Below, piece after piece: positions 36,293 through 55,790 of a stretch of DNA of 64,000 nucleotides (positions are counted from its first letter, which is position 1; every line of letters starts with the position of its first letter). The notes beneath the pieces were generated by a model. That model ran no database searches and was not told the origin of the DNA. It worked only from the letters and a program-made list of their open reading frames with translations. Both the position numbers and the translations under genes were made by a program. Location: contig NZ_JACHVB010000013.1 in the NCBI RefSeq assembly GCF_014230085.1, positions 186,001 through 250,000 of the forward strand, in the 5' to 3' direction. Origin of the DNA: Ruficoccus amylovorans. Lineage in GTDB: Bacteria > Verrucomicrobiota > Verrucomicrobiia > Opitutales > Cerasicoccaceae.

Positions 36293-36299
36293 AGCTTTG

Positions 36300-37670
36300 C
36301 TACACCTGTTTTACACGGGCATACTCCGGCGCCTGGCAACGCTCGTCTCCCCACCGATTGATGAGGGCTCGCAGTTGTTGATCGGATTCGCCTGTACGGC
36401 CCCGGTCATTTGTCTCGATGATCCAGCGTTCCAGCGTTGCGGACAACTGCTCGCGAATATCCTCATAGCAAGGATCGCCCACCAGATTATGCACCTCATC
36501 ATGATCGGCGGCGTGGTCGTAAAGCTCTTCGGCTGGCCGGGCATCACCGGCATAGGGAGCCTGCTCGTCGTTCAGGCGCCCCTCTGCCCATAGACGCCTG
36601 TACTCCAGGTAACACTCGGTCTGGTCACGGTACTGCGGCTGCATCAGCGGCCGGTCCGTCAGGTAATTACGGATGTAGCGGTATCGCTCGGTCCGGACCG
36701 AGCGAATGCGGTCGATGGTGAAATCACAACGATCCCGCGCCGAGAAAACACAGGACCGCTCGTTCCCTTCCGTCATAAAATTTCGGGCATCCATCCACTC
36801 AGGCACCTCAAGACCCGCCAACTCCAGACTGGCGGCAGCAATATCAATCGAGCTGACCAGGCGCTTCTCAGTCACTCCCGCACGATGATCCTGAGGCACA
36901 CTTACCACCAGCGGGACGTGCGTTCCACCGTCGTAGCAAAACTGCTTGTGGCGCAGCAGGTCCATTCCGTGGTCGGAAAAGAAAAAGATGGCCGTGTCCT
37001 CCAGCAAGTCGTCCGCTTCCAGCGCCTGTAAAATCCAGCCCACTTCCTGGTCAACCAGTTGGATACACTCGTAGTGCCGGGCGATCTGGCGGCGAAACGC
37101 GGGCGTATCCGGGTAACAAGCCGGCACACGCACCCGCTCCGGCGATACGGCCTCAAGGGCTGGCCGCGTATTCTTCCCTCCCCAAAGGCCAATCTGCCCG
37201 AAGAAAGGCTGGCCGTCCCTGCGGCGACGCCAGTAGGCCCATTCGCGCTCGCGGGTATCGAAAGGGACGTAACCACGATGATGGTGCCCATAAAACTCCG
37301 GCGTCTCGAACTCCCCATCGTAGAGTGCCGCGCGATCATAGACAAAGTTGTAGTCGTCCTTGCCCAGATTATAGGTAAAATAACCGGCTTCGCGCATGAT
37401 TTGCGGAAGGGGACGCACCCCCGTTGGCAGAAAGACTTCCGGCTCACCGGGGCGCGAGGAAACATGGTTATGAACGCCGATGCGTGTCGGATAACAGCCG
37501 CAGATCAGGCCGGAGCGCGAGGGCGAGCAAACCGGGGCGGTGGAATGGCAATTAATGTACGTCCGCCCCCGCGCAGCCAATCGTTCGATGTTGGGTGTCG
37601 CCACGGTGCGGTCCCCCCACAACGGCAGCAACGGGCTCATGTCCTCAACGAAAATCCAGAGTATATTCAT
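36300..37670 (-). CDS. S1-family sulfatase, probably cytoplasmic
   Basis: 456 residues, formylglycine-dependent sulfate ester hydrolase. The modification motif is Cys48-Ser-Pro-Ser-Arg52 (APVCSPSRSG); further metal and sulfate-binding blocks are FFFSDHGMDLLRHKQFCYDGGTHVPLVV and a C-terminal ELYDHAADHDEVHNLVGDP. The N-terminal metal pair is Glu9-Asp10 (WIFVEDMSP) rather than Asp-Asp. The protein begins directly with the fold and has no signal peptide, so it should act inside the cell on imported sulfated oligosaccharides. Last gene of the five-gene run 45,476-36,300, 42 bases after the sugar symporter. Confidence 0.9.
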   Translation of the reverse strand: MNILWIFVEDMSPLLPLWGDRTVATPNIERLAARGRTYINCHSTAPVCSPSRSGLICGCYPTRIGVHNHVSSRPGEPEVFLPTGVRPLPQIMREAGYFTYNLGKDDYNFVYDRAALYDGEFETPEFYGHHHRGYVPFDTREREWAYWRRRRDGQPFFGQIGLWGGKNTRPALEAVSPERVRVPACYPDTPAFRRQIARHYECIQLVDQEVGWILQALEADDLLEDTAIFFFSDHGMDLLRHKQFCYDGGTHVPLVVSVPQDHRAGVTEKRLVSSIDIAAASLELAGLEVPEWMDARNFMTEGNERSCVFSARDRCDFTIDRIRSVRTERYRYIRNYLTDRPLMQPQYRDQTECYLEYRRLWAEGRLNDEQAPYAGDARPAEELYDHAADHDEVHNLVGDPCYEDIREQLSATLERWIIETNDRGRTGESDQQLRALINRWGDERCQAPEYARVKQV

Positions 37671-37712
37671 ATCTCAGCCAACACTCACGGTGGAAAACAA
37701 TCCCGGTCAGGC

Positions 37713-39197
37713 TCAGGTTTTCATCTTCGCTTCCATCTCCTCTGTCCTGCGATTGATATCGTCCATGTACGCACGGTCAACCGGGTAACGCCCCAGGATA
37801 AACAATGCCAGAGCGATCACCACCGGCCCGGAAATGAAAGTCAGCGTCGCGATGTTGCGAACGGCTTCGGGCGTTTGCTCGTCGGCCCCGGATTCAATGC
37901 CCGCCGTGGCGACCAGCCACCCGGTCAACAACAACCCGATGGAGATCGACGTTTTCTGACAAAAGGTGAAGACGGACGCATAGCTGGCATTTTTGAGCTT
38001 ACCCGTATTGACGTAGTTGATCGCCGCTACATCGGCTATCATGGAGCTGGCCAGCGGAACAAGCACTCCGCCGCCGCCCCACCAGCAACTCTGGAGCAAG
38101 GCAAAGACACCCACCGAAAGCGGAATCGCCACCCCGCCAACCGTCCACGTCGAATCAGCAGGCAAGACGCCCCCGATGAATACGAGGTACAGCCCCACGC
38201 CGCCAAAAAACGAGAGACCGCCACCAATATAGCCGCAGACCTTCTTGTCAAAACGCGCGACCAGCCTGGACTGGAATAACGAACAGACAGCGAAACTCAG
38301 CATCCCCGCGCCGTGGACAAATGTCTTCTCCGAACTGCTGAACTCCATGAAAAACACGTAGGTGAAAAGCTGCATCTGAGCCGTCAGCAGCATGGCGAAT
38401 TGCGCCACCACAAAAAATCCGAATACCCACAGTGCCAGCCGGTCCCGCAGGATGGAGCCGAACTCCCGGACAAAACCGGCCACGCTTCTGGAGTTTCCGG
38501 CGTCTCCTACCTCATCATCGTATGGCTTCGCGTATTGCCACGTGGATACAATACAGATGAGTGACATAATCAACACCGCCATCGCGAGCACGGCCCCCAT
38601 GAGCAGATAATTCCCCGCGATCAATGTGCCGTCGATACGCTCGCCTTCCGCGGAGAACTCATCCCGAAAGAAAAGCGTCCAGGCCATTGCACCGAACGTG
38701 AAGTTGACCACCTGATTGATAAAGAAACGAACCCCCTGGAGCCGGGAACGGCCTTCGTAGTCCGGGCAGATCTCAAAGCCGAGCGCGGTAAAGGGCACGG
38801 CGAACACCGTCACCGCGGTTCTCAGCAGCAGGTTGATGCATAGCACAACGGCGAAGACCGCCGCCTCGCCCGTCACTTGCTGCGGGACAAACCAGAGCAG
38901 AAAGAAACTGACCGCCAGCGCCAAGCTGCCGATAAGCAGGTAAGGCTGTCGCCGCCCCAGGCGCGTCCGCGTATTATCGGAAATATATCCCATCAACGGG
39001 TCCGTAATCGCATCCCAGAGCGTCGTTATGCTCAGTGCCAGCGCCGCCACCCCCGCACCCAGCCCCAGTACCTGAGTCAGAAAGATGAGCGCAAAGTTGC
39101 TCACCCCGTTCATGGCGATAGAGATCCCCCCCTCCCCCATGGCATAGCCAAAGATTCGAGCCAGACCAGCTGGCTTATGCGACATGGGTTTCATCAT
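37713..39197 (-). CDS. GPH-family sugar:cation symporter (MFS)
   Basis: 494 residues with about 12 transmembrane segments. The N-terminal block ITTLWDAITDPLMGYISDNTRTRLGRRQPY is diagnostic for glycoside-pentoside-hexuronide symporters (melibiose-carrier type), which import oligosaccharides or glycosides with Na+ or H+. The central loop and second half (STWQYAKPYDDE, GGGLSFFGGVGLYLVF) fit the family. It lies between the GH110-like gene (64 bases upstream) and a sulfatase without signal peptide (42 bases downstream). It is therefore the likely importer for the partly processed oligosaccharide of this locus. Confidence 0.9.
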   Translation of the reverse strand: MMKPMSHKPAGLARIFGYAMGEGGISIAMNGVSNFALIFLTQVLGLGAGVAALALSITTLWDAITDPLMGYISDNTRTRLGRRQPYLLIGSLALAVSFFLLWFVPQQVTGEAAVFAVVLCINLLLRTAVTVFAVPFTALGFEICPDYEGRSRLQGVRFFINQVVNFTFGAMAWTLFFRDEFSAEGERIDGTLIAGNYLLMGAVLAMAVLIMSLICIVSTWQYAKPYDDEVGDAGNSRSVAGFVREFGSILRDRLALWVFGFFVVAQFAMLLTAQMQLFTYVFFMEFSSSEKTFVHGAGMLSFAVCSLFQSRLVARFDKKVCGYIGGGLSFFGGVGLYLVFIGGVLPADSTWTVGGVAIPLSVGVFALLQSCWWGGGGVLVPLASSMIADVAAINYVNTGKLKNASYASVFTFCQKTSISIGLLLTGWLVATAGIESGADEQTPEAVRNIATLTFISGPVVIALALFILGRYPVDRAYMDDINRRTEEMEAKMKT

Positions 39198-39261
39198 AGA
39201 GGTGTGCTTATCGGGGTGTTTTTAAATGGGTAACCGGCAGCGAGGCATAAAGGCCACCGGC

Positions 39262-41082
39262 TCAAAGGGACTCCACATGCGCCTGGGGAGTGGTATCCAG
39301 GTGAGGCTGCAATTCGACGTGGTGACGCTCGTTCAATGTCTCATTGAGTTCCAGCATGGGCGCCTCAGCGACATCAGTAGCGATATAATTATCCTGAACA
39401 CAGACATCCTTGCAGACCTCCAGAGTCAGCCGCGCCCGCATCCGCTTGTCAGGCCGGTATGCACGGTTGGCCTCGATGCGGTTTCCCTTGAACACAAAGC
39501 CCTTCACCGAACGCGCATAGACCAGACCGGTATCGAAGGTGCTGAATATGTTATTGGTGATGCAAATCCCACTGTGGAACGTCGCCTCGGCAACATCCGG
39601 GCCGCTAACCTCCGGGTCGATGTCAATGACGGCTCGCCCCCAGGAGACAGGCCCGTAGCAGCACTCGCCGAAGTGGTTGTCCTCGATGAGAACATCCCGC
39701 ACCGCCCCGGACTCAAACCAGTAACTGGCATCACCGCTGATTTTGATAGCCGACCCCGCCGGGGACAGTTCATTCTCGCGCACGATGATTTTGCGCGGGG
39801 TTGAGAGCAGAAAGCCCCGGGCGCGGTTGTTTTGTACGCGGCATCCTTCGATTACAACCTCCGGCGTCCAGGTCAGGTTCTCCATCGCGCAGCCAGGCTG
39901 GATCTCCGGAGACAGCGGCGCGCGGAAAATAACCCTAAACGTCCACTCATCAACCTGCTCGATGCGCTTGATACGTCCCTTACCCAAGGTAGCGAGACTG
40001 TTCGCATGCCGAAAGACCACGTCATCTCCCGCCACTCCCGGACGCATCGACTTTTGCTCAAAGTGGCCGATTCCCAACAGCAGCGAGCAATCGCCCTCCC
40101 GCTCATCAACCCTGAAATGAATCCCGTGAACGTTCGCAGCGTCATCGAGCTGGTTGGACATCCGGCAACGCCGGAACAAGATTTTCCCCCGGCAGTTAAC
40201 AAAGTGCGTCGCGTCCGCCGTCGAAGAAAAATACCGGCCCGAGGCCTCGTCTGGTTCGACCGCACAGTTGAGCAAAGAGATATTTTCGGTGAATTGCCCC
40301 AGCACGGCTGTGCCCGCCGCGTGTCGGATCACCAAAGACTCCAGCACCACATCCTTGGAATCCACCATGAACACGGCGGGGAAGTACCGGCGGTAATGGC
40401 GCATGACCAAGATGTTGCCAGGGCGGGCTAACCGACCGAATTCCCCCTTCAGGCGCACACGCGAGTCCCCGAGATATTCGGCGCTGTTTTCCGAGCTGAA
40501 CACCCCTCCCAGGTTATCCCCGCTCAGGTGGGCCGGACGGCGGAGTCGGGCGTCGAATTCAAAAATACCCTCGGTGAAACCGTGGCTCCAGCCTTCACCG
40601 ATGAAGCGCATCGTGCCGTCCACCACCTCGTAGGGATAGCGGGCCTCATCAATGGCGACATCGACATGGTCCATACCGGCAGCCAGGATTTCCCCTTGCG
40701 AGAAAAACGTCCGGTGCCAGTCGATTGTAAAGTTCTTCAAGCGGATATTACTGCCATGATCGACGACGAAAGGAAGTATCTCCCCGTGAAAGACCAGACG
40801 CGCCCCGGCACCGTCAATCGTGATGCCTCTTCGCCCCAGCAAGGGGAAGGCGATCCGCTTCAAACCTGCCTGATTGTTGGACAGATAATAAAATTTCTCC
40901 TCAGCCTGATGAGGCCAAAAATGGTATTCCCCCGGCTCAAGTACAAGCGTCTGCCCATTTTCGACTTTGCCCAGTATCTGCTTAATCAGGGGCGTGGCAT
41001 CTTCGTTGGAGTCAGGGTACAGCCCATGTTGGCTGGCTCTGATCGACGCACCACGCCTATCATCGTGATTTGTTTCGTTCAT
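39262..41082 (-). CDS. GH110-like right-handed beta-helix enzyme (alpha-1,3-galactosidase family)
   Basis: 606 residues, beta-helix fold with many parallel-strand repeats (VVLESLVIRH, VLIEDNHFGE, ICITNNIF, CVQDNYIATD). The N-terminal third carries blocks recalled from GH110: EPGEYHFWPHQAEEKFYYLS, GRRGITIDGAGARLVFHGEILPF, and LKNFTIDWHRTFFSQGEI. GH110 enzymes cleave terminal alpha-1,3-galactose from host glycans or lambda-carrageenan oligosaccharides. No signal peptide is visible (MNETNHDDRRGASIRASQ), so it appears to act on imported substrate. It sits 9 bases after the 245-residue exported protein gene and before the GPH symporter. The family call is by pattern recall. Confidence 0.75.
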   Translation of the reverse strand: MNETNHDDRRGASIRASQHGLYPDSNEDATPLIKQILGKVENGQTLVLEPGEYHFWPHQAEEKFYYLSNNQAGLKRIAFPLLGRRGITIDGAGARLVFHGEILPFVVDHGSNIRLKNFTIDWHRTFFSQGEILAAGMDHVDVAIDEARYPYEVVDGTMRFIGEGWSHGFTEGIFEFDARLRRPAHLSGDNLGGVFSSENSAEYLGDSRVRLKGEFGRLARPGNILVMRHYRRYFPAVFMVDSKDVVLESLVIRHAAGTAVLGQFTENISLLNCAVEPDEASGRYFSSTADATHFVNCRGKILFRRCRMSNQLDDAANVHGIHFRVDEREGDCSLLLGIGHFEQKSMRPGVAGDDVVFRHANSLATLGKGRIKRIEQVDEWTFRVIFRAPLSPEIQPGCAMENLTWTPEVVIEGCRVQNNRARGFLLSTPRKIIVRENELSPAGSAIKISGDASYWFESGAVRDVLIEDNHFGECCYGPVSWGRAVIDIDPEVSGPDVAEATFHSGICITNNIFSTFDTGLVYARSVKGFVFKGNRIEANRAYRPDKRMRARLTLEVCKDVCVQDNYIATDVAEAPMLELNETLNERHHVELQPHLDTTPQAHVESL

Positions 41083-41091
41083 TATAAAAGC

Positions 41092-41829
41092 TTAAATTCC
41101 TCCCGACAGAGACGAGGCGTCATCCGAAACTATCCTCCGTGGCTGCGCCCGGTCGAACACGACAAGCAACTCCATTCCCATCCTCGCCTTACTCGGTACA
41201 ATGAAAATAAATACCCTCTCATTGGCCCGAACCGGAATGCGGTTCCTGTAAATGGGCCGGTAACCGTCGTCCACCGACTGCACGAGAATCGTCTCCATCC
41301 CCGACGGGGCTTCAATTGACGACTCCCAATAAATCTGACCGGGAGCTGCTCGCAGCACGATTTCATCCATTTTGGCGGCGATGTTTGCCGCACTGAAATT
41401 CGCAAACACAATTGCGCCCTTTCCGGAAAAGCCCGGATTCTCGGGTATAGGCATGAGCTTGACCGTCTCCGTGTCGCCCGCTCCCCGAACCACAAACAGA
41501 TAGATGTGGCGCCCCTGCCATTGCCGCGGGACCGGAAGCTCCTGAACACTCGACGAACCGTCCTTGGAAAGCAGGCGATAACGCAACGGGCCAAGGCCAA
41601 CATACTTGCGGACCTTCGAAAAACCGCGATTGGGCACCCATTGCTTCACCAACTCCGGCCCTTCGCCTTCAGTCTCCAGCTCCAGTGTCCCCAGGGTCGA
41701 GTGAATCGAATAGGTAAACTGTATCGGTGGCTCTTCCTCCTGCGCCGAAAGCACGCCCATGCCGTGCTGGCCAAAGCTCAACAGCAACGAAAGTCGTAAG
41801 AGGTTTTTATAAAAAGACAGAGCACTCAT
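41092..41829 (-). CDS. Exported protein of unknown function, partner of the giant pseudopilin-like protein
   Basis: 245 residues with a signal peptide (about residues 1-30, ending ...GMGVLSAQ) and a mostly beta exported part (IQFTYSIHSTLGTLELETEG, RHIYLFVVRG, RVFIFIVPSKARMGMELLVVF). Its ATG overlaps the stop of the 1,216-residue gene by four bases (ATGA), and it lies 9 bases before the GH110-like gene, so it is translationally coupled to the pseudopilin and co-transcribed with catabolic genes. No recognised domain. A structural or assembly partner of the upstream protein is a reasonable inference. Confidence 0.6.
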   Translation of the reverse strand: MSALSFYKNLLRLSLLLSFGQHGMGVLSAQEEEPPIQFTYSIHSTLGTLELETEGEGPELVKQWVPNRGFSKVRKYVGLGPLRYRLLSKDGSSSVQELPVPRQWQGRHIYLFVVRGAGDTETVKLMPIPENPGFSGKGAIVFANFSAANIAAKMDEIVLRAAPGQIYWESSIEAPSGMETILVQSVDDGYRPIYRNRIPVRANERVFIFIVPSKARMGMELLVVFDRAQPRRIVSDDASSLSGGI

Positions 41830-44800
41830 AGGCTGATGGAGGAAGTATCAAGCCAGCGGAAGCCGATGATACGGAACTTGCGCCCGAACTGGCGGTTAAT
41901 CTCTTCGAGTTCCGCACTTGAGGGGTGGACCTCGGGCAGGTTGGCAGGATCAATATATTCGGGAGTGCGCTGCACGATGGCCTCACAGCACGCGATTGCC
42001 GTCTCACCAGAAATCGGGTTCGTCACCTCGCCGATGGAACGAATGGTAAAGGTGTCACCGCGCACGCTCAAGTACGGCCCCAGCGGCTCAAGCAAATCCC
42101 CCTGCGTCAGGGTACCCGGCGCATACGCAAAAGTGGAATCTGCGTTCAAACCGCTGCGTTCGATTGCTGCTTGCAGGGCTCCCCGATCCCCACGCTCGTC
42201 ATCCACCAGCATCCGGTTGACAAACTGCGCCACCGACAGAAACGGCCCTCTCTGCCGAACTTCGTCCACGATGTACTCGGAGAGTGTCTCCAGCGCAGCG
42301 CTGTCGGACTGATTGCTACGGTAAATATCCTCCACCGCAACGGGACGGGTCTCAGCCCACTCATCGGTACCGGCTTGCATGCCAGGCATGCGCGGGAAAA
42401 ACACTTCGTCGCTGGCCCCGAGACGCCCCTCCGGCGTCAACCCCAGACGTGAGGCCAGAAAGGCCGCCCAAGCCTTTTCAGACGTTGAGTTCACATTGAA
42501 CGCACCCTTCAGCATCAGGTGCTTCGCCGCCAGCGCATGATCGCGTAATTCCACCTCATCCTGGTCCAGTATGACAAAATTCTGGTTCGGCCAGGACCTG
42601 GTAAACAGATCCGCCCCCGCGGGGACAGTGGAGAAAAAGTAGCTGTCCCAAAGCGCACGGTTCAAGTAGTAGGCACTATCCACAACCAGGTCCGTCGTGT
42701 TCATATTGACAGACTCCGGCAGCGCCTGGCCGAAAAAGTCGAAGTCGGTCAGGTTCCCGCTGTCCAGACTGTAGCCGGGCTGGTTCCGGTGAAAGGAAAC
42801 CGTCTCGGTACGCTCCAGATTGGCGCTCGGCAGGCGTGAACTCCCAAAGGTGTAAGCGGGGTCGCCGGGGTGGAAAGCGACATTCCAGTGCCGCAGAACG
42901 CCCAGCGACGAGGGCTCCTCCTGAGGCACATGAAAGAGTATCGTTTCATCAACGCTGACATTGGACTCGCCCCAGCCCGTCATATCCAGCCCGAAGCTGT
43001 ATGGGTCGGGATAAAAACCCGTTGTCCACCCGCTGGTTTCAAAGGCCCGGTCGCCATCGAAGCCGTTCGGATCGCGAATAAGTAACGAGCGGGGGTTGGT
43101 GCGTCCGAGGAAATTCTCGGCACCGTCGTTGAGTCCGTCCACGGCGTAAGTCCCCAACCGGAAATCCTCAGCCGAGAGTGCCCGCAGTTGAATGACGCCG
43201 ACGTCCGTGATTTGCCCGCCCCAGGTCGAAGCCGCATCCTTGACCAGCGAGACATCAACGGCAAAAGCATCCCCCAGGTCCGAATCTGTCCCCACCTGGG
43301 AGTTTTCCCCGATGCGGTTCCGCGAGAACGGGACTTCCACCGCCTGATGAGTCAGACGTATATTCCCAAGCTGGCTCCCCCCCTGCGTATGCCAGTCACT
43401 GGTAATGCGTTGCGCTCCCTGCTGCATCATGGGCAGTAAGCTGACACGGATATTCATCAGGTTATAATCGTCCATGCTCGTCGAAGCCCCACTGGTACCG
43501 CCGCTGGAGAACTGAGGCCAGGTCAGCCCGTAGGAGACAGTTGACCCCGACCTGGAATACGAGCGTACGGGTACAGCCATCGAAGTATTTCGCCAATCGT
43601 CCCCCTCCACCATGACCAGGGTTCCCCCTGCACTCGAAGAGGCCACAAACCCTTTTGTCTCTCCCGGCGCGAAGCTTATCCCACTGCTACCAGCCGCCAC
43701 ACGGAGCGTCATGTTCGCATTCGTCGTTACCTCGCTCCCGGAGCCGCCCTTCAGTTCCCCGGTGATCATTGAGCCAAGGCTGCGGGCGTTGGCCTGAGTC
43801 AACGCGATCTGGCTGGTATCATTATCGACCGACCAGATCAGATCTGGAATACCCGGATCAGCATCGCTCAGCCTGAAGTCGAAAGTCATGCGCAGTTGAA
43901 AGACAGGAATATGAAAAGCCTTGTCCATCAGGACCGGCACATCGTAGGGGTTCGTCAATTCGACAAAGGGGTGTACGTGAAGCTGTATTTCCCGGTCACT
44001 GCCGTTCGCCACCACTTCGGCACGCACATAGAATATCAGCTCTGTCATGATGGGAGTAACCGGAGAATTAATCGGCAGATGGCGTTTGGCATCGAGCACA
44101 TCGTAATCCTGGAAGTTGGCCCCAAAATTCAAGAGATCACCAAGAGCCTGCGCCTCATAGGGCGTGAAAATATCATTCTCACGCTCATCCCCCATGACAA
44201 AGGGTTGGCTGTTCAGAAGAGCCGAGGCGATTTCCTCCCGGACATCGTAACCATTCGGGTCTGTCCCGCTCTCGGTCGCCAGCCAGTCCTCATTGACTGG
44301 CTCATGGACACGTATCGTGTTGTTCGCCCCCGAAAGCAACCGACGGTGATTGGCGAAATCCCATAGTGCCTCGATTCGTGGCCCGTAAATGACATTATCC
44401 ATGACACCGACATTCGGATTGGTGGGCGCGCCAGACTCGATTTCCTCGTCCAGATAAATCGAGTACAGATAAGGACTCGTCCTGTATGGCTCCGGGAATT
44501 CTTCCAGGTCCGCCGTCACTCCGTCATCCATGTTAATTTCGGGAAGACGGATCAGAGAGGTCAGGTCTTTCTTCAGACCTCCCACCCTGGGATCAGTCAA
44601 GACCCCAACCGAACTCGCACTCAAAAAATCCTCAACGCCCTCCGGATCGATACCGAACACAGCCAAATCGGTCAGCGATGATATCCGCGCCCAATCGTCC
44701 TCGGAAACCGATGCGGCCGTGCCGGATGACGGTAATACCACCTCGGGGGCAAAGCGCTGGGCGACTCGCGCCGCCAGGGCCGCATCAGCGTCTTCGGCGG

Positions 44801-45476
44801 CATTACGGTACGGATCCCCCATGTCGATCCGTACCTTCTGGTTTTCATCCTGCACCCACCAGGCATAGCGCGCACCGGGCTGGCCCTCGACATCCTCGAA
44901 GTACACCTTAACCGCGCGGGCATCTCCTGCCGCTTTCCGGATCGTCACCACGTCGGTACCCGTCAACGCCTCCGAGGGGTCCAGCGTATCAACAGCGCCA
45001 CTGACCAGCCAGCCCTTGCTCATATTCATTTTCTGAGCCGGACTGTAGCTGTCCCAACTGCGTTGGGCAGAAGTCCCAAGAACCGGATCATAGGTACTCT
45101 CATCACCGTCGTCGCTCAACGGATTGGTTGACCACACTCCGACCCAGTCCGGCTCATCAATAGACGTATCGCCGGGGCCGGTCATAAAGATTCCTGCCTT
45201 GGCGGTAATGCGCCGATCCGGCCCGGCCAGACTCTGCAGGCGTCCGATCGCCACCTGCATGCCGAGCATGGCATTCTGGCGGGCAACGGCCTGGTCCAGG
45301 GCAATCCTCACCGAGGAACTCTCGACCATGACCAACCCGCTGAAGGCCATAATCAGGATAAAGACAAAACCCATTAAAACCATGGAAATAATGAGTGCAA
45401 ACCCACGTCGGCATGGCCGGACTCCGCGAAACACTCGCCGGGGGGAAAGGATCATCTGGGGGGGCATAGACGACAA
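41826..45476 (-). CDS. Giant pseudopilin-like exported protein (Verru_Chthon cassette A / GspK-like)
   Basis: 1,216 residues. After a basic leader (RRVFRGVRPCRR) comes a prepilin-type segment, GFALIISMVLMGFVFILIMAF, lacking the Glu at position 5 as in GspK/PilX-like minor pseudopilins. The block RQNAMLGMQVAIGRLQSLAGPD and the C-terminal half (LSEYIVDEVRQRGPFLS, YLSVRGDTFTIRSIGEVTNP, CCEAIVQRTPEYIDP) match large exported proteins found in pilin-like cassettes of Verrucomicrobiota. It would need a prepilin peptidase and a pilus or type II secretion motor, such as the pilMNOPQ genes in this window. First gene of a five-gene run with carbohydrate catabolism genes; an ATCAATATTGAT palindrome lies 75 bases upstream. 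Confidence 0.75.
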   Translation of the reverse strand: MSSMPPQMILSPRRVFRGVRPCRRGFALIISMVLMGFVFILIMAFSGLVMVESSSVRIALDQAVARQNAMLGMQVAIGRLQSLAGPDRRITAKAGIFMTGPGDTSIDEPDWVGVWSTNPLSDDGDESTYDPVLGTSAQRSWDSYSPAQKMNMSKGWLVSGAVDTLDPSEALTGTDVVTIRKAAGDARAVKVYFEDVEGQPGARYAWWVQDENQKVRIDMGDPYRNAAEDADAALAARVAQRFAPEVVLPSSGTAASVSEDDWARISSLTDLAVFGIDPEGVEDFLSASSVGVLTDPRVGGLKKDLTSLIRLPEINMDDGVTADLEEFPEPYRTSPYLYSIYLDEEIESGAPTNPNVGVMDNVIYGPRIEALWDFANHRRLLSGANNTIRVHEPVNEDWLATESGTDPNGYDVREEIASALLNSQPFVMGDERENDIFTPYEAQALGDLLNFGANFQDYDVLDAKRHLPINSPVTPIMTELIFYVRAEVVANGSDREIQLHVHPFVELTNPYDVPVLMDKAFHIPVFQLRMTFDFRLSDADPGIPDLIWSVDNDTSQIALTQANARSLGSMITGELKGGSGSEVTTNANMTLRVAAGSSGISFAPGETKGFVASSSAGGTLVMVEGDDWRNTSMAVPVRSYSRSGSTVSYGLTWPQFSSGGTSGASTSMDDYNLMNIRVSLLPMMQQGAQRITSDWHTQGGSQLGNIRLTHQAVEVPFSRNRIGENSQVGTDSDLGDAFAVDVSLVKDAASTWGGQITDVGVIQLRALSAEDFRLGTYAVDGLNDGAENFLGRTNPRSLLIRDPNGFDGDRAFETSGWTTGFYPDPYSFGLDMTGWGESNVSVDETILFHVPQEEPSSLGVLRHWNVAFHPGDPAYTFGSSRLPSANLERTETVSFHRNQPGYSLDSGNLTDFDFFGQALPESVNMNTTDLVVDSAYYLNRALWDSYFFSTVPAGADLFTRSWPNQNFVILDQDEVELRDHALAAKHLMLKGAFNVNSTSEKAWAAFLASRLGLTPEGRLGASDEVFFPRMPGMQAGTDEWAETRPVAVEDIYRSNQSDSAALETLSEYIVDEVRQRGPFLSVAQFVNRMLVDDERGDRGALQAAIERSGLNADSTFAYAPGTLTQGDLLEPLGPYLSVRGDTFTIRSIGEVTNPISGETAIACCEAIVQRTPEYIDPANLPEVHPSSAELEEINRQFGRKFRIIGFRWLDTSSISL

Positions 45477-45563: not shown

Positions 45564-45897
45564 TTTTTTCAAGATAAAAGCATCCCAAACCTCTGCCAGA
45601 AACAGGCAAATACCCCGTACACCCCTCGTTGACGCAGAAAAACACCGCTAAAAAATATCCGATAAGGAATCCAACCGGGTACAAAAGGAGTGAAAGGTCG
45701 AACCAGTCCCCCTTTCATTAAATAACTCCCCAAGCCCGCCTCCGCACACTTCCTTTCCAAAAGGCAGGAAACCGGACCAGGCAACAACGAGCTGTGCAAG
45801 CCAGGAGAGGCTAACTCAAGGGCAACACCGGCAACCGGAACGTAAATCCCTTTCAATCCCGACAGGAAAAAACAGGGACGCTTGTCCCCCGCACGAC
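45564..45897. other. Gene-free stretch between the operator and the MITE-like element
   Basis: No supported coding frame. Moderately AT-rich sequence between the pseudopilin promoter region and the left inverted repeat of the element. It probably contains the pseudopilin promoter, but no clear -35/-10 pair was identified. Confidence 0.4.
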
Positions 45898-46087
45898 CTA
45901 GAGCATGTTCGCTTTAATCTGTCGCCTGCGGTGGGGAAATGTCTTGAAGCCTCGCCAGGCGGCAGTGGGTGTAGCGGGCTGGAAGCCCGTAAGCCTGCTG
46001 CCAACGCCGCGAGCTCCAAGACAGGCCTCATCCGAAGGACTGGCTGCTTTTGAGCCCCGGCGGCAGATTAAAGCGAACATGCTCTAG
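45898..46087. mobile_element. 190-bp MITE-like element with 24-bp perfect terminal inverted repeats
   Basis: The left end begins CTAGAGCATGTTCGCTTT (24 perfect bases, 45898-45921) and the right end is its exact complement (46064-46087). With one mismatch the repeat extends to 29 bases. The interior holds a short hairpin (GCGGGCTGGAAGCCCGT) and secondary inverted repeats (GTCTTG...CAAGAC), but no transposase. Ends in CTAG fit a YTAR-type target such as that of IS5-family elements. The right repeat contains the stop codon of the adjacent regulator gene. A non-autonomous transposable element is the best explanation; a REP-like repeat is an alternative. Confidence 0.75.
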
Positions 46088-47154
46088 TGCGAAGGAGCGC
46101 CGGTTGACTCTCCCTTGAATAAGGCAACCCGGTCCGGCTCAATCACGACCGTCTCTTCCAGCCCTTGAGTTTGAAATCTCTCAATGGCGCGCCGTACCAT
46201 TTCCGAGACGGCTGGCTGCTGAAGGCTCGTAATCGATGGCACCGACTGGGAACCATGCTCGGCAGGGCCAAAGACCGCGAGGGAAACATCCTGAGGAATC
46301 CGCAACTGCGCATCAGTAATCGCCCGCGCAAGTCCCCACCCCGTAATGACAGACAGCCCCAGCATAGCGGTAGCATCGGTCCGCCCGTCGATAAAAACGT
46401 TTCTCATTGAGCTTGTCACCATCCGCTGCTCACCCCGCTCGTTCGAGGTTGAGCAATCCCACAACTGGCCACGCAGACCATGTTCATCCAGGTAACGGCG
46501 CCAGATTTTTATTCGCTCCTCATACTCGCGGTAGCCGGTTCGGCAGTGCACGCAATCGATGGTTTTGTGCCCGAGTTCCGACAAATGATCCAGCAATGGC
46601 AACATAGCCGAGGCCGAGACGTCCGAAATCATGGACAAACCCTGATCGGTCAAATCCCGAAAGAGGGTAAATATGCGGTTACGGCACTGCATCAGGCGGT
46701 TACGGAGCACCTCGGAGAAATTATCCGGGGGAATGAAGAAAATAATGTCAAAAGACTGCCCCAGCATCGACAACAGAGCCGGGTCGTCCTCATCAAGGAA
46801 GTGATGTACGCGCAACAAACCGTTACAGCAACGCACCCCTTCATAGACTCCCTCCTGCCACAGGTGTGCGGAAAGCCCTCCCGTCACCGGGCTAAGCAAC
46901 AGAGCCTGAAACTTCTGCCCGGCGCATTGATACTTACGCGCGGCCATCAACTTGCCGGACTTGCTCCCGTTTCTCTCCAAATAGCCCTCGTCAACCAACT
47001 GCGCGATAGCCCGACGCACGCAGGTCAAACTCAAGCCCGATTCGGCCGAAAGCCTACGCTCCGATGGAATCGGCGTCGCCTCATAATATCCATCCTTGAC
47101 GCGACGCCTCATTAAACGGACCAAGGGATCAGACTTGAACGCAGTTACCGGCAT
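46084..47154 (-). CDS. GntR/LacI-type hybrid transcriptional regulator
   Basis: 356 residues from ATG 47154 (MPVTAFKSDPLVRL). The N-terminal winged helix is GntR-type (PIPSERRLSAESGLSLTCVRRAIAQLVDEGYLE), followed by a periplasmic-binding-like sugar-sensing domain as in LacI/GalR proteins (residues ~85-345; NVFIDGRTDATAMLGLSVITG, QDVSLAVFG, PSITSLQQP). Such hybrids control carbohydrate genes. It lies between the two catabolic runs, each of which starts with an ATCAATATTGAT palindrome. Its stop codon lies inside the right repeat of the MITE-like element, so its C-terminus may have been changed by insertion. Confidence 0.88.
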   Translation of the reverse strand: MPVTAFKSDPLVRLMRRRVKDGYYEATPIPSERRLSAESGLSLTCVRRAIAQLVDEGYLERNGSKSGKLMAARKYQCAGQKFQALLLSPVTGGLSAHLWQEGVYEGVRCCNGLLRVHHFLDEDDPALLSMLGQSFDIIFFIPPDNFSEVLRNRLMQCRNRIFTLFRDLTDQGLSMISDVSASAMLPLLDHLSELGHKTIDCVHCRTGYREYEERIKIWRRYLDEHGLRGQLWDCSTSNERGEQRMVTSSMRNVFIDGRTDATAMLGLSVITGWGLARAITDAQLRIPQDVSLAVFGPAEHGSQSVPSITSLQQPAVSEMVRRAIERFQTQGLEETVVIEPDRVALFKGESTGAPSH

Positions 47155-47298
47155 AAAACACAACTCTCCAATATCTTTTTGGTGACAGGCCCGTAATTGA
47201 GCCTATCATGATAATATTAGGAGAAGCGTAGTCGAGGGCTCCACGCCTCGCAACATAAATATCGTTTTTGCTCTTTTTTAAACGACTTCCAGCCGTTA

Positions 47299-48885
47299 TT
47301 ATTGGGTTTTCAATCCAGTGATATTCCTGAGGTTCATGCCTCGGGTACACTGTTCGATGACGTTATTGACCAGGGTAATGTCATGAAAGGCATCGATGTC
47401 CTCAATGGGTATATGGGGTGCTCGCAGCGCTTCGATGGTGATAATGCCCCAGTTTTTGTTTTCGTCGAAATTGGAACTGAATCCGCAATCGATGATGCGG
47501 TTACTAACGATCTCGACGTTCTCACAAAACAACCCTTCACGATAGCTCCCCGGCTCGTTGCACATGAAAATGGCCGGACCACTTAACCCCGTGAAGGTAT
47601 TCTTGCTCAGTTCGACATCGTAAGCTTTCAGAAAGACACCGAAGCGACGTGAGTTTTTAAATGTGTTCCCCTCGATCAGAACTCCGCGATTGAAACCAGT
47701 CCCATAAAAACCGAGCGCTTCCTTGCGGGACATCAACTCCGGGAGAGGATCGGACACATCAACGATTCCCTCCTCGGGAAAGACCGATGTAATACGCGTG
47801 CGCGCAACGATCTCCCCCTTCTCACGGTCAAAGATGACCAAACCATCGCCCACCCGCAATTGCCCGGCGGATTTCCGGGGAGCAAAAGTCCGCGCATCCG
47901 CAGATAGCTGCAAACGCCTCGGCTCAAGCTGGTCGAGCAGGAAGAACGGTTTCGAGTACAGGTTGATGGCATCGTCAGAAATACCTTCCACAACATTATC
48001 GCGAATGACAATAGGGCCGCGGGCATTCTGAACATGAATAAAGTCCGCATTCCCCCCTTTGATCATTCCTCTCCCGATCTTTGCTTCGCAACCGATGAAT
48101 GAGAGTCCCTCGGAGTCAACCGCGAGATAATGCCCCCCAACAGAACCGTAGGAAATAATTCTCTCAAGAAGCAGGTTGCGGCAATCCTGCGCGATCAACA
48201 GCGGGCTTCGATTCTCGCGCGCATTCAGCATAAAGACCATCCCGGGCTCAATCTTACGCAGGACATCCGGAGGGCAGGTCAACGGGATGGCAAACGTCCC
48301 GACCGCAGTTTCTTCAGGGGGCGCTTTCAGAAAAAGCACATTGGGCATCCCACGGGTAAGGCGCCCTGGTACCGTATCGTCCATGAAGTAGCCCCATAAG
48401 CCATTTTTCGTAATCCACGGTTCCACAAACGACGGCGACTCTGGATTGGCTTCCACGATGATCGTCCCACTCTGCTGCTCGACTTCGACAACCTTCCCCC
48501 AGGCAAAAGGCACAGGGTCATAGCCGACACTGAAGCCCTTCAGCGAAACATCCACGCATCCGATAAGTTTGAACAAACCAATGGTCGGAGTATTTATCCT
48601 GAGGATCGCCCCTTCCCCATTCATCGTGAATTGCTGCACATTTCTGAGCACAAAGAGGCTGCCAAATGCACCCTCCTCCGCGGCCAGGTCGTAGACTCCC
48701 GGCTCCAGAAGCACCGTAAGGCCAGGCTGGTTTCTCGCCTGGCTAAACAGGTTCTGGAAAGCGGCCGTATCATCCAGTCCGTCGTCCGGAGCTCCCCCGA
48801 AATCGGCAAGTGAGACCGTATTTTGAGCAGCACAGCATCCGCAGGCAAGACCCAGCGTGAGAAACAATCCGTGTAGGAGATTCAT
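47299..48885 (-). CDS. Exported right-handed beta-helix protein, probable polysaccharide-active enzyme
   Basis: 528 residues from ATG 48885, with a signal peptide (MNLLHGLFLTLGLACGCCAAQ). It then shows the pectin-lyase-like N-terminus (VSLADFGGAPDDGLDDTAAF) and repeated parallel-strand rungs (VLIEGNTFKNSRRFGVFLK, VEIVSNRIIDCGF, DITLVNNVIEQC). The fold is shared by pectate lyases, GH28, GH82, GH110 and others; the exact family cannot be fixed by eye. Last gene of the run 57,362-47,299 and 63 bases after a sulfatase. Export and position suggest attack on the same sulfated polysaccharide outside the cytoplasm. Confidence 0.75.
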   Translation of the reverse strand: MNLLHGLFLTLGLACGCCAAQNTVSLADFGGAPDDGLDDTAAFQNLFSQARNQPGLTVLLEPGVYDLAAEEGAFGSLFVLRNVQQFTMNGEGAILRINTPTIGLFKLIGCVDVSLKGFSVGYDPVPFAWGKVVEVEQQSGTIIVEANPESPSFVEPWITKNGLWGYFMDDTVPGRLTRGMPNVLFLKAPPEETAVGTFAIPLTCPPDVLRKIEPGMVFMLNARENRSPLLIAQDCRNLLLERIISYGSVGGHYLAVDSEGLSFIGCEAKIGRGMIKGGNADFIHVQNARGPIVIRDNVVEGISDDAINLYSKPFFLLDQLEPRRLQLSADARTFAPRKSAGQLRVGDGLVIFDREKGEIVARTRITSVFPEEGIVDVSDPLPELMSRKEALGFYGTGFNRGVLIEGNTFKNSRRFGVFLKAYDVELSKNTFTGLSGPAIFMCNEPGSYREGLFCENVEIVSNRIIDCGFSSNFDENKNWGIITIEALRAPHIPIEDIDAFHDITLVNNVIEQCTRGMNLRNITGLKTQ

Positions 48886-48948
48886 CGTCAAAGTATCAAG
48901 AGGTTAAGTTAAGCCAATTCAGGCAACACAGCGTTGAACTCTTCAGCA

Positions 48949-50448
48949 TTAGTTCGCTTCCGCCCACGGGGCAAAACGCTCTCGCGATTCCGGAGGCAGG
49001 CTGCGGTACAAGTCCCTGAGCTCGCGCTGGCTCATCGTGGTCTGAGCTGGCAAACCTTCGACCCAACGCTGATAGGTCTCGGTCATCTGCCGGAAACGGT
49101 CTGACTGCTCGTGCTGCAGGTCATTGCTCTCCGTAATGTCGTTCGGGAGCTCGTACAAGCCAATCAAAGTCGGAGCTCCCACTTCGCGCGAACGCTTGGT
49201 AGTCAGTCCTTCATTAGTCACTTTCCAGTCTCCTTCGCGAATCGCCCATCCGTGGCGCTCCGGCATGCTCAACGGATGCGGAAAACGCCACATCAAGGCC
49301 CGCTCGGGGAGCTTTCCTTTCCCGGTCACCATTGGCAGCAGGTTCTCTCCGTCCAGGCCTTCAGGTATCTTACTGTCATCCCCTGCGGCGGCCAATGCCG
49401 TCGGCAGAATATCCAGGGAAATAACCGGTGTGTCAATTACCTGGCCAGCGGGAATAACAGAAGGCCATTGCATGGCAAAGGGCACGCGCACCCCACCTTC
49501 AAGAACATCGCCTTTGACCCCCCGGAGCGGTTCGTTGTTCGCCCGGGTCACCGAAGTTGGTCCACCGTTGTCACTGAGGAAGAAGATCAGCGTGTCGTTC
49601 TCCAGGTTCTCGTCCTTAAGGGTGGAAAGCACTGAGCCAACGGCATCATCCATCGCAGCAACCATAGCGGCATAGACCTGCCGGGGATGGGCAATCATCC
49701 GATCCGTATAAGCGCAATGCGCAGGGACATCATCCTCGTGCGCGAGGTGTTCGAAGCGCTTGAGATAGTCTTCGGGGGCCTGCAGCGGAGCATGGGGAGC
49801 GTTAAAGGCCAGATAGAGAAAGAAAGGCTGATCCGCGTTTTTCTTGATAAATTCGCAGGCCTCTTCGCCGAAAACATGCGTCAGGTAACGCGTCTCTGTC
49901 ACCGGCTCGTCGTTTCTCCACAGGTAAGGAATCGAATCCTCCCCTTCCTGAGGCATGTACATGGTCCCTCCGACGAGGTGTCCGTAGAAATAATCGAAGC
50001 CGCGCTCATTGGGCCTGTCGGAAGGGGTTGGAGAGAGAGGCTCGGCCCCCAGGTGCCACTTGCCGATAATGCCGGTCGCGTACCCATCCTCACGCAGGTA
50101 CTCCGGCATCAGCGGGATCGTATCAGGCAGGCCGAATGTGTCGATCGTCGTATTGCATTCACGGCCAAATCTGCTCTGGTTCTGTCCGGATAGAAGCCCA
50201 GCCCGCGAAGGCGCACACTGCGGCGCAGTAACGTACCCATTCGTAAACAACACTCCGTTTTTAGCAATCGAGTCGAGCGCAGGCGTCGGGATTTCCTTGC
50301 TACCGTTAAAGCCGACATCCGCGTAGCCCTGGTCATCGGACAAAATGACAATGACATTCGGTTTACGGGCCGAAGCCGCAGACGTTATGATTACAGTCGC
50401 ACCGGCAGCCAGCACGAACTTTCTGAACAGAGATATTATTGTATTCAT
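48949..50448 (-). CDS. Exported S1-family sulfatase (CAPSR)
   Basis: 499 residues with a signal peptide (about 1-28). Formylglycine motif Cys78-Ala-Pro-Ser-Arg82, N-terminal metal pair Asp38-Asp39 (VILSDDQGYADVG), histidine block GKWHLG, and the later DNGGPTS. Arylsulfatase-A-like layout, about the normal length. It should hydrolyse a sulfate ester on the polysaccharide in the periplasm or outside. Located between the esterase (24 bases upstream) and the beta-helix protein, in the second minus-strand run. Substrate position cannot be predicted without a subfamily search. Confidence 0.92.
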   Translation of the reverse strand: MNTIISLFRKFVLAAGATVIITSAASARKPNVIVILSDDQGYADVGFNGSKEIPTPALDSIAKNGVLFTNGYVTAPQCAPSRAGLLSGQNQSRFGRECNTTIDTFGLPDTIPLMPEYLREDGYATGIIGKWHLGAEPLSPTPSDRPNERGFDYFYGHLVGGTMYMPQEGEDSIPYLWRNDEPVTETRYLTHVFGEEACEFIKKNADQPFFLYLAFNAPHAPLQAPEDYLKRFEHLAHEDDVPAHCAYTDRMIAHPRQVYAAMVAAMDDAVGSVLSTLKDENLENDTLIFFLSDNGGPTSVTRANNEPLRGVKGDVLEGGVRVPFAMQWPSVIPAGQVIDTPVISLDILPTALAAAGDDSKIPEGLDGENLLPMVTGKGKLPERALMWRFPHPLSMPERHGWAIREGDWKVTNEGLTTKRSREVGAPTLIGLYELPNDITESNDLQHEQSDRFRQMTETYQRWVEGLPAQTTMSQRELRDLYRSLPPESRERFAPWAEAN

Positions 50449-50472
50449 AAAACGATTACACAGGTTTCGGTT

Positions 50473-52059
50473 TTATTCGAGTCCACGCGTTGCCTCATCA
50501 TTCAGCCTGACCCGGAAGGGAGTTACCGGGAGGCCATTTCGGTCCCGCAAATTATTCGGAGGATTATCTCCCCAGGCATAGCGTACCTCCACTGGATGCC
50601 TCACCTCCACATGCTGGAGAACGACCTGGTTACGGACCGGGATCGTGGCCTCCGCCCAGTAGAAGACACCGTCCTCACCCGCGATTGAAAAGCCCGACAC
50701 CTCATTTCTCCCATAGGCATAGAGTCCTTCATCGACCTGATCGAAAGTCAGCGTTACGCGCGAGCCATCGACCACGGCGGAGGCACATTGCGGACTGCCG
50801 CTTACCAATTCGTAGCCGTAGTCTCTGGCCAATGCCTGTCGGGCCAACCGGCGAGCCACGGCCTGCTTGGCCCCCGGATGGATCTCATTTCCCTCGCCAA
50901 GGTCGATCGCAACCGCCTGGCCAGTGTTCGGAAGGCTTAGCGCCCCGCTCTGTGCTTCGCGAAGCACTGCCCAATTACGCGGAGAGATATCACCGTTGGG
51001 ATCGTCAAACTCCGGACCGTAGGCGGGTAACTGAACCCAGTAGAACGGAAAGTCTCCCTGCCCCCAAATGTCACGATAGTAGTTGATTAACGTAGGGAAA
51101 AGATCGCGATACTGCCCGGCTCTTTTTGCCGTCGGTGTGTTGGACTCGCCCTGATACCAGATAATGCCCCGCATTCCGTAGCCGATGGTCGGATAAACCA
51201 TGCCGTTAAAGATGCCTGAGGGAGTTCGCTGGTATAGTCGCTTGTCCAATACACCAAAGGGCCGACGTTGACCGTTGTACTGGCCGAATCTCTCCCACTC
51301 CTTGAGCTGTTTTTTATACTCAGCCATATCGCGCTCGTACATCTCGTCGGTGTAGGAGGCTGCGTCCTGCTTCCATTCAGCAACGACTTCAGCCGTCTCC
51401 TCATTGGCCATCAACAAGTCCATTGGCAGCCAGGCTTCAGCACATGAGCCACCCCACGGATTGGCAACTAACCCGACCGGCACACCAAGCGCATTGTGCA
51501 GTTGGCGGCCGAAGAGATAACCCACCGCAGAAAAGCCCGACGCTGTCCGGGGCGAGCACACATTCCACCCTCCCTCGAAGTCCTCCAGCGGCTCCAGGCT
51601 GGCGCGACGAGGCACCTGCAGCAGCCGTATCTCCGGATAATTGGCAGAGGCGATTTCCACATCGCTATCAAAAGCACTACCAAGATTGAACAGCATATTC
51701 GACTGTCCCGAGCAGAACCAAACTTCCCCCACCAGGACATCCTGAAACTGAAGCGTCTCTGAGTCGCCACGGACCGTCAGCTCATATGGGCCACCGGCCC
51801 CCATCGGATCAAGCTTGAGCAACCACCGGCCGTCAGGTCCGGCCGTAGTTTCACGCACTTTTCCGCCAATGGTCACTGAGATGCGCTCGCCGGGTTGGGC
51901 CTTACCCCATATCGGGTTATCCAGGTCGCGCTGCAGCACCATATGGTCGCCAAAGATATTCGGCAGCCACAGTTCAGCCCCGAGACGTGGCAAAAAGACT
52001 GACCAGAGAATAACGGCATAAGCCACCCAGTTCTTCCTGTCGCGCATGATGCTCATCAA
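50473..52059 (-). CDS. Sialate-O-acetylesterase-family carbohydrate esterase
   Basis: 528 residues with an N-terminal signal segment (about 10-28). SGNH-type block: GEVWFCSGQSNMLFNLGSA (Ser120), GVPVGLVANPWGGSCAEAW, and WYQGESNTP later; the C-terminal beta domain closes the fold. Family members remove O-acetyl groups from sialic acids or from plant and algal polysaccharides. In a sulfatase operon the likely substrate is an acetylated, sulfated algal glycan. It starts 21 bases after the upstream sulfatase stop. Nucleophile Ser120 is seen; the rest of the triad was not checked. A downstream start (MRDRKNW, 52047) is possible. Confidence 0.88.
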   Translation of the reverse strand: MMSIMRDRKNWVAYAVILWSVFLPRLGAELWLPNIFGDHMVLQRDLDNPIWGKAQPGERISVTIGGKVRETTAGPDGRWLLKLDPMGAGGPYELTVRGDSETLQFQDVLVGEVWFCSGQSNMLFNLGSAFDSDVEIASANYPEIRLLQVPRRASLEPLEDFEGGWNVCSPRTASGFSAVGYLFGRQLHNALGVPVGLVANPWGGSCAEAWLPMDLLMANEETAEVVAEWKQDAASYTDEMYERDMAEYKKQLKEWERFGQYNGQRRPFGVLDKRLYQRTPSGIFNGMVYPTIGYGMRGIIWYQGESNTPTAKRAGQYRDLFPTLINYYRDIWGQGDFPFYWVQLPAYGPEFDDPNGDISPRNWAVLREAQSGALSLPNTGQAVAIDLGEGNEIHPGAKQAVARRLARQALARDYGYELVSGSPQCASAVVDGSRVTLTFDQVDEGLYAYGRNEVSGFSIAGEDGVFYWAEATIPVRNQVVLQHVEVRHPVEVRYAWGDNPPNNLRDRNGLPVTPFRVRLNDEATRGLE

Positions 52060-52080
52060 TCTGTGCCTGTGAGATTAAAA

Positions 52081-53496: not shown

Positions 53497-53753
53497 TTAG
53501 GTTTCTATCTCCGAACAGCCCTGTAGGTGGAAACCGACTCTTCAAACCCAATCACGTTGAGCTTAACCGTCAAATTTCCATTCATATAAACAATGCAAGA
53601 CCAGACACGCATAATAAGGGGCACAATAGGTTCATGGGGGGGTAACTGATACGGGCTTTGTTAGCCTTGGATAGAGATACTACTGATAGCGCCAGTCACG
53701 GAGACCTATCGGGCTACTGCACGGTAATTCACACATGGTTTGATAAGGGCTTA

Positions 53754-55688: not shown

Positions 55689-55790
55689 AGAATCTTGAGG
55701 TATTCGGGATTAAAGTGTCATTAGAATTTCGATACATAACAGCCGGGGCCGCACACTCGCCCGCAAATGGCGCGTGCTTTACCCTGGGGC

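Follow-up and report, generated by a model that had tools for sequence, protein, structure and literature searches.

By what route large sulfated polysaccharides enter the cells of Verrucomicrobiota is the question that this locus raises. According to Orellana et al. (PMC8857213), SusCD machinery genes were not found in their metagenome-assembled genomes (MAGs) of this phylum, and other outer-membrane transporters are urged for consideration. The question is addressed here through a family of giant pseudopilin-like proteins and their partners, represented in a stretch of 64,000 nucleotides of Ruficoccus amylovorans (contig NZ_JACHVB010000013.1, positions 186,001 to 250,000; the window) by a gene for 1,216 residues (the giant) and a gene for 245 residues (the partner) that precede genes for a glycosidase, a symporter and a sulfatase. 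The analysis supports the order of this operon, the multiplicity of the giants, their pairing, the co-diversification of the pairs and, on a predicted model, a GspK-like fold. For the giant the most fitting interpretation is a tip pseudopilin of GspK type whose conserved ends surround a variable middle of ~540 residues, and the link between giants and carbohydrate genes is real but loose.

The giant, its partner and their predicted folds

41826..45476, minus strand: giant, putative GspK-type tip pseudopilin of 1,216 aa (open reading frame, ORF; structure matches of the predicted model; 20 intact paralogues)
45225..45404, minus strand: prepilin peptidase site G/FALII without Glu5 and predicted N-terminal helix of 58 residues (sequence; AlphaFold2)
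44562..45401, minus strand: N-terminal core part of the giant, mature residues ~1-280 (conservation profile and model; limit placed at a conserved anchor)
42681..44561, minus strand: variable middle of the giant, mature residues ~281-907, partly beta-rich and of low model confidence (conservation profile)
41829..42680, minus strand: conserved C-terminal core part of the giant, mature residues ~908-1191 (conservation; helices and last strands of the model; VIA-align ranges)
41092..41829, minus strand: partner, 245 aa, with a Sec-type leader (by eye) and two tandem beta-sandwich domains (leave-one-out hidden Markov model, HMM; model)

The giant gene starts with TTG, and an alternative in-frame ATG at 45467 would give a protein of 1,213 aa. 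As the original prediction had read from the sequence, the prepilin segment (RRG/FALII..., Gly at -1 and Phe at +1) lacks Glu at +5, where it has Ile. Inspection by eye of the 21 giants of the genome finds the site G/[F or M]A[L or I] in every one and Glu at +5 in none. An AlphaFold2 model made for the 1,191 mature residues (55 sequences in the input) contains a helix at residues 2-59, for which the predicted local distance difference test score (pLDDT) is 84-97 per block of ten residues. This model was compared by VIA-align with known structures, restricted to the 292 chains ranked by Foldseek for the giant, 291 of which were aligned. The top four entries, of which three are crystal structures and one is an integrative filament model, all represent GspK/XcpX, with root-mean-square deviations of 2.9-3.3: 6utu_C (Z 11.1, 221 residues aligned), 5vtm_X (Z 11.1, 219), 3ci0_K (Z 11.0, 240/280) and a chain of the filament model 9a1f (Z 10.8, 253/295). 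The fifth row is a VirB8-type chain with a Z score of 2.8. Since the GspK/XcpX match ranges run from residue 1-37 to residue 1185-1189 of the model, the two ends of the giant appear to build a GspK-like core. The earlier suggestion of a GspK-type tip subunit thus gains support from the structure comparison of a predicted model.

Conservation divides the protein in a similar way. Mean pairwise identity per 50-residue block is 0.09-0.30 for residues ~301-900 versus 0.29-0.51 in the C-terminal part, and the N-terminal 300 residues are mixed (0.15-0.44), with high values at residues 1-100. In 48 copies from two genomes, the region corresponding to 280-908, whose limits were chosen by us at conserved anchors, is 410-678 residues long (mean 541, standard deviation 54); the ends have standard deviations of 20-21 on mean lengths of 286 and 335.

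Compared with GspK/XcpX, which sits at the pseudopilus tip of the type II secretion system (T2SS; 3ci0_K, 5vtm_X, 6utu_C), the giant has in common the prepilin site without Glu5 and the long N-terminal helix, and most of the GspK/XcpX chain (219-253 of 259-295 residues) aligns on its predicted model. In contrast to GspK/XcpX, the giant is about four times longer, has a variable middle and a near-constant partner gene, escapes the sequence models, and occurs outside T2SS operons in 21-27 copies (two genomes). Several observations weigh against the assignment. The giant model has a mean pLDDT of 65.9, with high values towards both termini, low ones between them and 419 residues below 50; Foldseek also ranks GspK first, but with an E value of 0.15; the T2SSK sequence model PF03934 finds one of 20 giants, at E 0.36; and comparison of the giant profile with the genome's own GspK gives a probability of 1.8%. 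The middle is also only somewhat more variable in length than the ends (standard deviation/mean 10% vs 6-7%). Across the whole genome PF03934 has no match over its cut-off, and one of its four weak matches is in a giant (15.9 bits). The giant profile found no match among solved structures by sequence alone, and no Pfam or NCBIfam model matched either the window giant or its partner at E <= 1.

The partner is modelled with more confidence (pLDDT 87), as a leader helix followed by two beta-sandwich domains. In fold it comes closest to PepT2/PepT1, whose tandem extracellular domains match it with Z scores of up to 14.4, and its second domain resembles HGSNAT, AlgF (Z 9.3) and many other beta-sandwiches. 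Kinship with PepT1/PepT2, HGSNAT or AlgF was rejected and these matches were taken as a common fold instead. A Pfam scan of 57 partner members gave nothing better than 0.013, in single members, and comparison of the partner with solved structures by sequence alone gave no convincing match.

A multi-copy family of paired genes

A search of the source genome (G000; 4.5 Mb in 64 contigs) with the giant found 21 further places, 20 of them intact paralogues and one broken, so that the genome has 21 full-length giants, window copy included. The counts and the tree exclude fragments shorter than 850-900 aa, and the broken copy stands outside the 21. This broken giant (~2480-3393 of locus L062, contig C40) lies on a 13-kb contig in which the codon-usage gene caller predicted zero genes, and the contig may differ from the rest of the genome in composition or origin.

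Directly downstream of 19/21 giants there is a partner ORF of 231-278 aa, with a gap of -56 to +85 bp. The 19 partners are homologous by leave-one-out profiles (E 7e-45 to 1e-19, E for a single-sequence search; 1e-19 for the window partner against its paralogues). The two remaining giants differ: the protein downstream of L054, which was included in the partner profile set, obtains no score and is PEP-CTERM-like, and L050, the shortest giant (987 aa), has no partner-type ORF and is followed by genes that appear by eye to be of housekeeping type. Gene calls came from a simple script based on codon usage, which gives approximate starts and missed several partners. In G004, a complete genome from the same bacterial family, a partner accompanies 27/27 giants, in loci with a G+C content of 47% versus 60% in the window.

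The family extends further. Giant matches at 1e-10 occur in 40/54 genomes of the same order or nearer, and the best 80 giant loci in named genomes include Cerasicoccus, Coraliomargarita, Haloferula, Luteolibacter and others across Verrucomicrobiota, as well as many MAGs labelled Akkermansiaceae and Kiritimatiellota bacterium B12222. Among these 80 loci, a partner was found for 48/78 giants of at least 900 aa with the first profile, and, once the profile had been iterated, for 50/75 giants that leave over 900 bp of space; some of the unpaired loci were missed by the distance limits, and several giants show no partner in sight. With wider limits, 115/141 giants are paired over all loci. A few partners lie upstream and on the other strand instead; the partner-like ORFs immediately next to the giants of L078 and L082 show this different layout of the pair. 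The sets used were A1, without the 21st giant of the genome (L047); A2, with 54/57 extracted relatives plus the window copy (L082, L125 and L136 excluded); and A3, with 56/57 partners plus that of the window (the truncated L087 excluded).

Giant/partner pairs co-diversify, i.e., they travel and diverge jointly. Distances between giants correlate with those between partners over the 46 pairs of the two genomes (Mantel Spearman rho 0.26, 0/2,000 permutations as high) and within each genome (0.37, p 0.001, in the source genome; 0.32, 0/2,000 permutations, in G004). The partner of the nearest giant is also the nearest partner in 18/46 pairs (1.0 expected) and in 55 of all 115 pairs (1.1 expected); for the source genome alone the figure is 4/19 (1.0 expected, permutations reaching up to 6). 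Together with the pairing of 19/21 and 27/27 giants, this bears out the treatment of the two genes as one unit. On the giant tree, copies from different genomes are interleaved, so the diversity of giants is old or exchanged, rather than the product of recent duplication.

The operon and the link to carbohydrate genes

39262..41082, minus strand: GH110-type glycosidase (Pfam PF23763 1.4e-19, PF23764 2.4e-07; stop-to-stop ORF 39262-41091)
37713..39197, minus strand: GPH-family sugar:cation symporter (MFS_2 5.4e-71; TIGR00792 8.8e-40, under cut-off)
36300..37670, minus strand: sulfatase with a C-x-P-S-R motif by eye (PF00884 (Sulfatase) 3.3e-31; stop-to-stop ORF 36300-37673)
45874..45889, minus strand: terminator-like hairpin, downstream of the regulator gene and upstream of the giant gene (consensus scan)
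46084..47163, minus strand: GntR-type regulator with a periplasmic-binding-protein-like ligand domain, upstream of the giant (PF00392 9.8e-08, PF13377 1.8e-12)
47299..57362, minus strand: adjacent cluster with a beta-helix protein, four more sulfatases and one other gene (ORFs and Pfam; several Sec-type leaders by eye)

That five genes run in one direction with short gaps, as originally described, was reproduced by an ORF check of the window, which places all five on the minus strand with exact intergenic distances: a 4-bp overlap between giant and partner, 9 bp between partner and GH110-type gene, 64 bp to the symporter and 42 bp from there to the sulfatase. A GGAGGA stretch lies in the final codons of the partner, ahead of the 9-bp gap, and because this gap is so short a terminator between partner and GH110-type gene is hardly possible. 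The GH110-type gene encodes the GLAA-B beta-barrel domains I and II (PF23763 70.5 bits, PF23764 31.3 bits, both cut-offs 28), by which domain match it is of GH110 type, and also matches the beta-helix model PF13229 (37.2 bits). Its start lies only three codons, and that of the sulfatase only one codon, from the upstream in-frame stop, which leaves no space for a signal peptide in either protein. Since both enzymes lack one, which fits import via the symporter, the operon can be read as coding for a pair of envelope proteins, a symporter and two enzymes of the cytoplasm.

Upstream of the giant, the hairpin at 45874-45889 is weak when taken alone because the scan found 13 such hairpins overall against 10.0 in shuffles, near chance. 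Beyond the GntR-type regulator, on the same strand, sits the 47299-57362 cluster, which probably supplies the same nutrient locus with its half that acts outside the cytoplasm; its beta-helix gene at 47299 matches GH110 at 9.9e-07. Elsewhere in the window (833-5291), genes for a TgpA-type transglutaminase, a DUF58 protein and a MoxR-type AAA ATPase lie side by side.

Whether other giants adjoin carbohydrate genes was analysed in both genomes. The source genome has 42 sulfatase matches, and 8/21 giants have one within 10 kb, where random places give 2.9 (binomial 0.005; contigs of unknown length pooled in this test). When the window copy is excluded, this is 7/20 (p 0.014). In G004, 10/27 giants have a sulfatase within 10 kb versus 4.5 by rotation (p 0.007), and 13/27 within 15 kb versus 6.2 expected (p 0.0014). 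The near clade of the window copy (support 0.81) has six members, five of them within 3.5 kb of a sulfatase; for the sixth, L231, none was seen, one of its flanks being only 2.2 kb long. Without the window copy, 4/5 members are near a sulfatase, compared with 22/107 tips of the whole tree within 6 kb (p 0.007, for a clade examined after the tree was built). In two of these members, L226 and L074, the neighbouring sulfatases point in the opposite direction, so that nearness to a sulfatase does not amount to a single transcript.

Co-directional neighbours were scanned as well. Sulfatase or glycoside hydrolase (GH) family hits, counted as proteins, were found in at least 6/32 neighbours in the source genome (best 25 of 35 families) and at least 10/41 in G004 (best 25 of 26 families) versus 4/54 in random runs, with p 0.022 when the window copy is included and 0.11 for the own set alone. 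Without the window copy the count is 14/70 vs 4/54 among the matches listed (p 0.04). The neighbours of L047, L054 and L057 are absent from the 32 proteins. The scan used E <= 1e-6 for the own set, 1e-10 for G004 and 1e-25 for the control, where all families were counted (at 1e-6 the control gave the best 25 of 71 families). The control comes from contigs of known length in the source genome, 2/20 of its regions overlap a giant, and proteins within one run are not independent. The p values of these counts are soft because the looser E limits favour the test sets.

Other results tell against a tie to carbohydrate genes, or at least against a close one. In the source genome, rotation per contig raises the expectation at 10 kb to 4.5 (p 0.039), and at 5 kb the count is 5/21 (p 0.21); at the same distance G004 has 6/27 (p 0.06). 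No sulfatase lies within 10 kb of 13/21 giants, two of which have a contig end closer than that, nor of 17/27 giants in G004. Inheritance of sulfatase nearness together with the giant was considered and rejected, given that there is no clustering over 107 tips (5 vs 4.3 expected, p 0.45). GH110 as a constant neighbour was likewise rejected: among the loci searched there is one other strong GH110 match, in L188, whose giant lies outside the near clade of the window copy. A co-directional neighbour at 250 bp or less is absent for 6/21 giants and, by the simple gene calls, for 9/27 in G004. That giants share a transcript with polysaccharide genes, from which the original prediction argued, is therefore not supported as a rule, given the copies without a sulfatase or co-directional neighbour and a GH110 gene that is near-private to the window copy. 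Homologues do adjoin carbohydrate genes in two genomes, so it is not the case that they are never found beside them.

These results bear on the view that the pair adjoins the operon merely since both occupy fast-changing accessory parts of the genome, with no tie to glycans. The many copies far from any sulfatase, the modest rotation p value at 10 kb and the absence of clustering on the tree would agree with it, but it has to contend with the 9-bp gap, which hardly allows a terminator before the GH110-type gene, with the replication of the enrichment in G004, and with the excess of sulfatase/GH hits among co-directional neighbours without the window copy, in so far as the unequal E limits that favour the test set allow. 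We consider this view very unlikely.

Pilus machinery, known counterparts and a proposed function

The source genome contains five secretin matches and 53 N_methyl pilin matches. On contig C5, a T2SS locus comprises T2SSF, T2SSE, a secretin (GspD), GspG and a small GspK of 385 aa (PF21687 7.5e-16, over cut-off; NF037980 4.6e-33, under cut-off), and on contig C63 T2SSE and T2SSF adjoin a secretin. On contig C32 (3705-10245 of the extracted region 28000-46000) an Amuc_1101-family-like PilM (E 4.8e-102, under that model's cut-off) is followed by two small genes and then a secretin, probably a MUL2-type pilus locus outside Akkermansiaceae. In the window itself, the operon at 13932-18825 had been described as a pilMNOPQ set. 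Its secretin (13932-15845) is indeed of PilQ/GspD type; the four small genes upstream of it, in pilM-P-like order, match no Pfam family at E <= 1e-4, their best NCBIfam match being GspM at 0.0032 (one gene, under cut-off), so that family support extends to the secretin and not to its companions. With T2SS loci, PilM, secretins and pilin genes present, pseudopili could be built. By eye, no run of gsp genes (GspG-J) lies beside giants in the gene calls of the two genomes; single pilin-like genes are near L059, L191 and L193.

One alternative is that giants serve export, each as an alternative tip for one of the two T2SSs that selects which folded enzymes leave the periplasm, with the partner as an adaptor between tip and enzyme. 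GspK belongs to the T2SS, the loci on C5 (GspD, E, F, G and small GspK) and C63 (secretin, E, F) could supply the machine, and a cluster with several sulfatases that bear leaders by eye lies directly upstream of the window copy. However, the enzymes that share its operon have no signal peptide, and 6/21 giants have no close co-directional neighbour at all. We regard export as an unlikely function.

Another is that giants have no part in uptake and attach the cell to surfaces or particles as adhesins at the pilus tip, which would carry the partner as a secreted adhesin. CofJ/TcpF, a secreted adhesin carried by a pilus tip, provides the model for such an arrangement, and the diversity of the middle regions would suit it. 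So would the MUL2-type PilM and secretin on C32, as the type IV-like pilus MUL2 has been proposed for attachment in Akkermansiaceae (PMC13174399; MUL loci are described after PMC13174399, PMC12418764 and PMC11790493). PMC13174399 also reports that marine Akkermansiaceae take up labelled fucoidan. General adhesion, however, would not need the loose nearness to sulfatases that is repeated in two genomes, and we regard this function as less likely still than export. MUL2 resembles the giants in being pilin-based, linked to glycans and found in Verrucomicrobiota, and the source genome has the Amuc_1101-family-like PilM, but giants and partners are not among the MUL2 parts described in PMC13174399.

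A further family of the phylum, Verru_Chthon cassette protein A (TIGR02600), was considered and rejected, since the window giant scores 14.1 bits and the best protein of the genome 19.9 bits against a cut-off of 332.3. The two are similar in length, and their first 60 residues are homologous (hhalign 97%, E 1.2e-10). Over most of the giant's length, in contrast, there is no clear similarity, and the match to its C-terminus, at a probability of 17% and E 0.0015, is faint but exceeds those of controls that were shuffled or reversed. True TIGR02600 members occur in 2/115 genomes of the phylum searched. Verru_Chthon protein A belongs to a four-gene pilin cassette. Such a cassette around each giant seems doubtful, given that N_methyl pilins are not enriched within 5 kb (1/21 giants versus 2.9 expected), with the qualification that cassette proteins B-D need not match the N_methyl model; the figure also counts against the proposal made below.

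A precedent is ComZ of Thermus thermophilus (PMC6561018), a DNA-binding, GspK-like pilin that carries a large inserted domain and is proposed to act as a tip receptor. Its insert is a beta-solenoid of ~380 residues between the last two strands, and its partner PilA2, a pilin, is encoded by an adjacent gene. As far as the predicted model and conservation go, the giant shares the GspK-like core with a large insert, and in ComZ, too, the binding partner is encoded adjacently. ComZ differs in that its partner is a pilin, its gene belongs to one competence locus and its ligand is DNA, whereas giants are multi-copy and their partner is predicted to be a beta-sandwich protein. In the Opitutales, Verruconatronum alginivorum has a PulG-like pseudopilin gene inside an alginate cluster, with 67 homologues in the genome, and another pseudopilin over-expressed on alginate (PMC13274419, accessible part). 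Unlike the giants, these pseudopilins are called PulG-like, and that part of the article mentions no giant GspK-type protein or partner. The main text of PMC6388578, on Kiritimatiellales and sulfated polysaccharides, makes no mention of secretion, pilin, pilus, TonB or SusC. Among the literature matches listed, a partial coverage, no published account of giant GspK-type proteins in Verrucomicrobiota was found.

SusC/SusD of Bacteroidota offers a parallel of another kind, as it also comprises many divergent two-gene pairs per genome with a loose tie to glycan loci. Giant and partner, in contrast, have no TonB barrel or similarity to SusD, and their fold and probable motor differ. A TonB-dependent barrel in each pair is not found; the genome has a single TonB-plug protein, on contig C34, which has no giant. 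The many divergent pairs, the loose tie to glycan loci and this single TonB-plug protein together suggest exchangeable tip receptors for polysaccharides.

From these elements we infer the tip position, the binding of the partner, the regulation, the substrate, the direction of transport and the choice of motor, as follows. A type II or type IV-like (pseudo)pilus would carry the giant, as a minor pseudopilin of GspK type, at its tip; the conserved ends of the giant would form the pilin core, and its variable region of ~540 residues would project from the tip. The partner would be exported by Sec, fold into two beta-sandwiches and bind its own giant. The 21 and 27 divergent giants of the two genomes, nearly all paired, would be switched on with different nutrient loci. 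Giants may thereby act in substrate capture: at the cell surface, the tip encoded in the window would catch a sulfated polymer similar to galactan and help to deliver it to, or carry it across, the outer membrane, oligosaccharides would cross the inner membrane via the GPH symporter, and the cytoplasmic GH110-type enzyme and sulfatase would then cut them. To this proposal as a whole, with giant and partner as exchangeable GspK-type tip receptors for polysaccharide capture, we give an even chance. The broader idea that, in Verrucomicrobiota without SusC/SusD, an exchangeable set of giant tips and partners draws in polysaccharides as a pilus-driven counterpart of SusC/SusD is more tentative and, on balance, doubtful.

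In all, this large and diverse family of putative tip-type pseudopilins, whose members almost always come with a partner and lie loosely near glycan loci, provides named and testable candidates for uptake in these bacteria. If the proposal is true, the conversion of a GspK-like pilin into a receptor by domain insertion would be extended from DNA, as in ComZ, to glycans.

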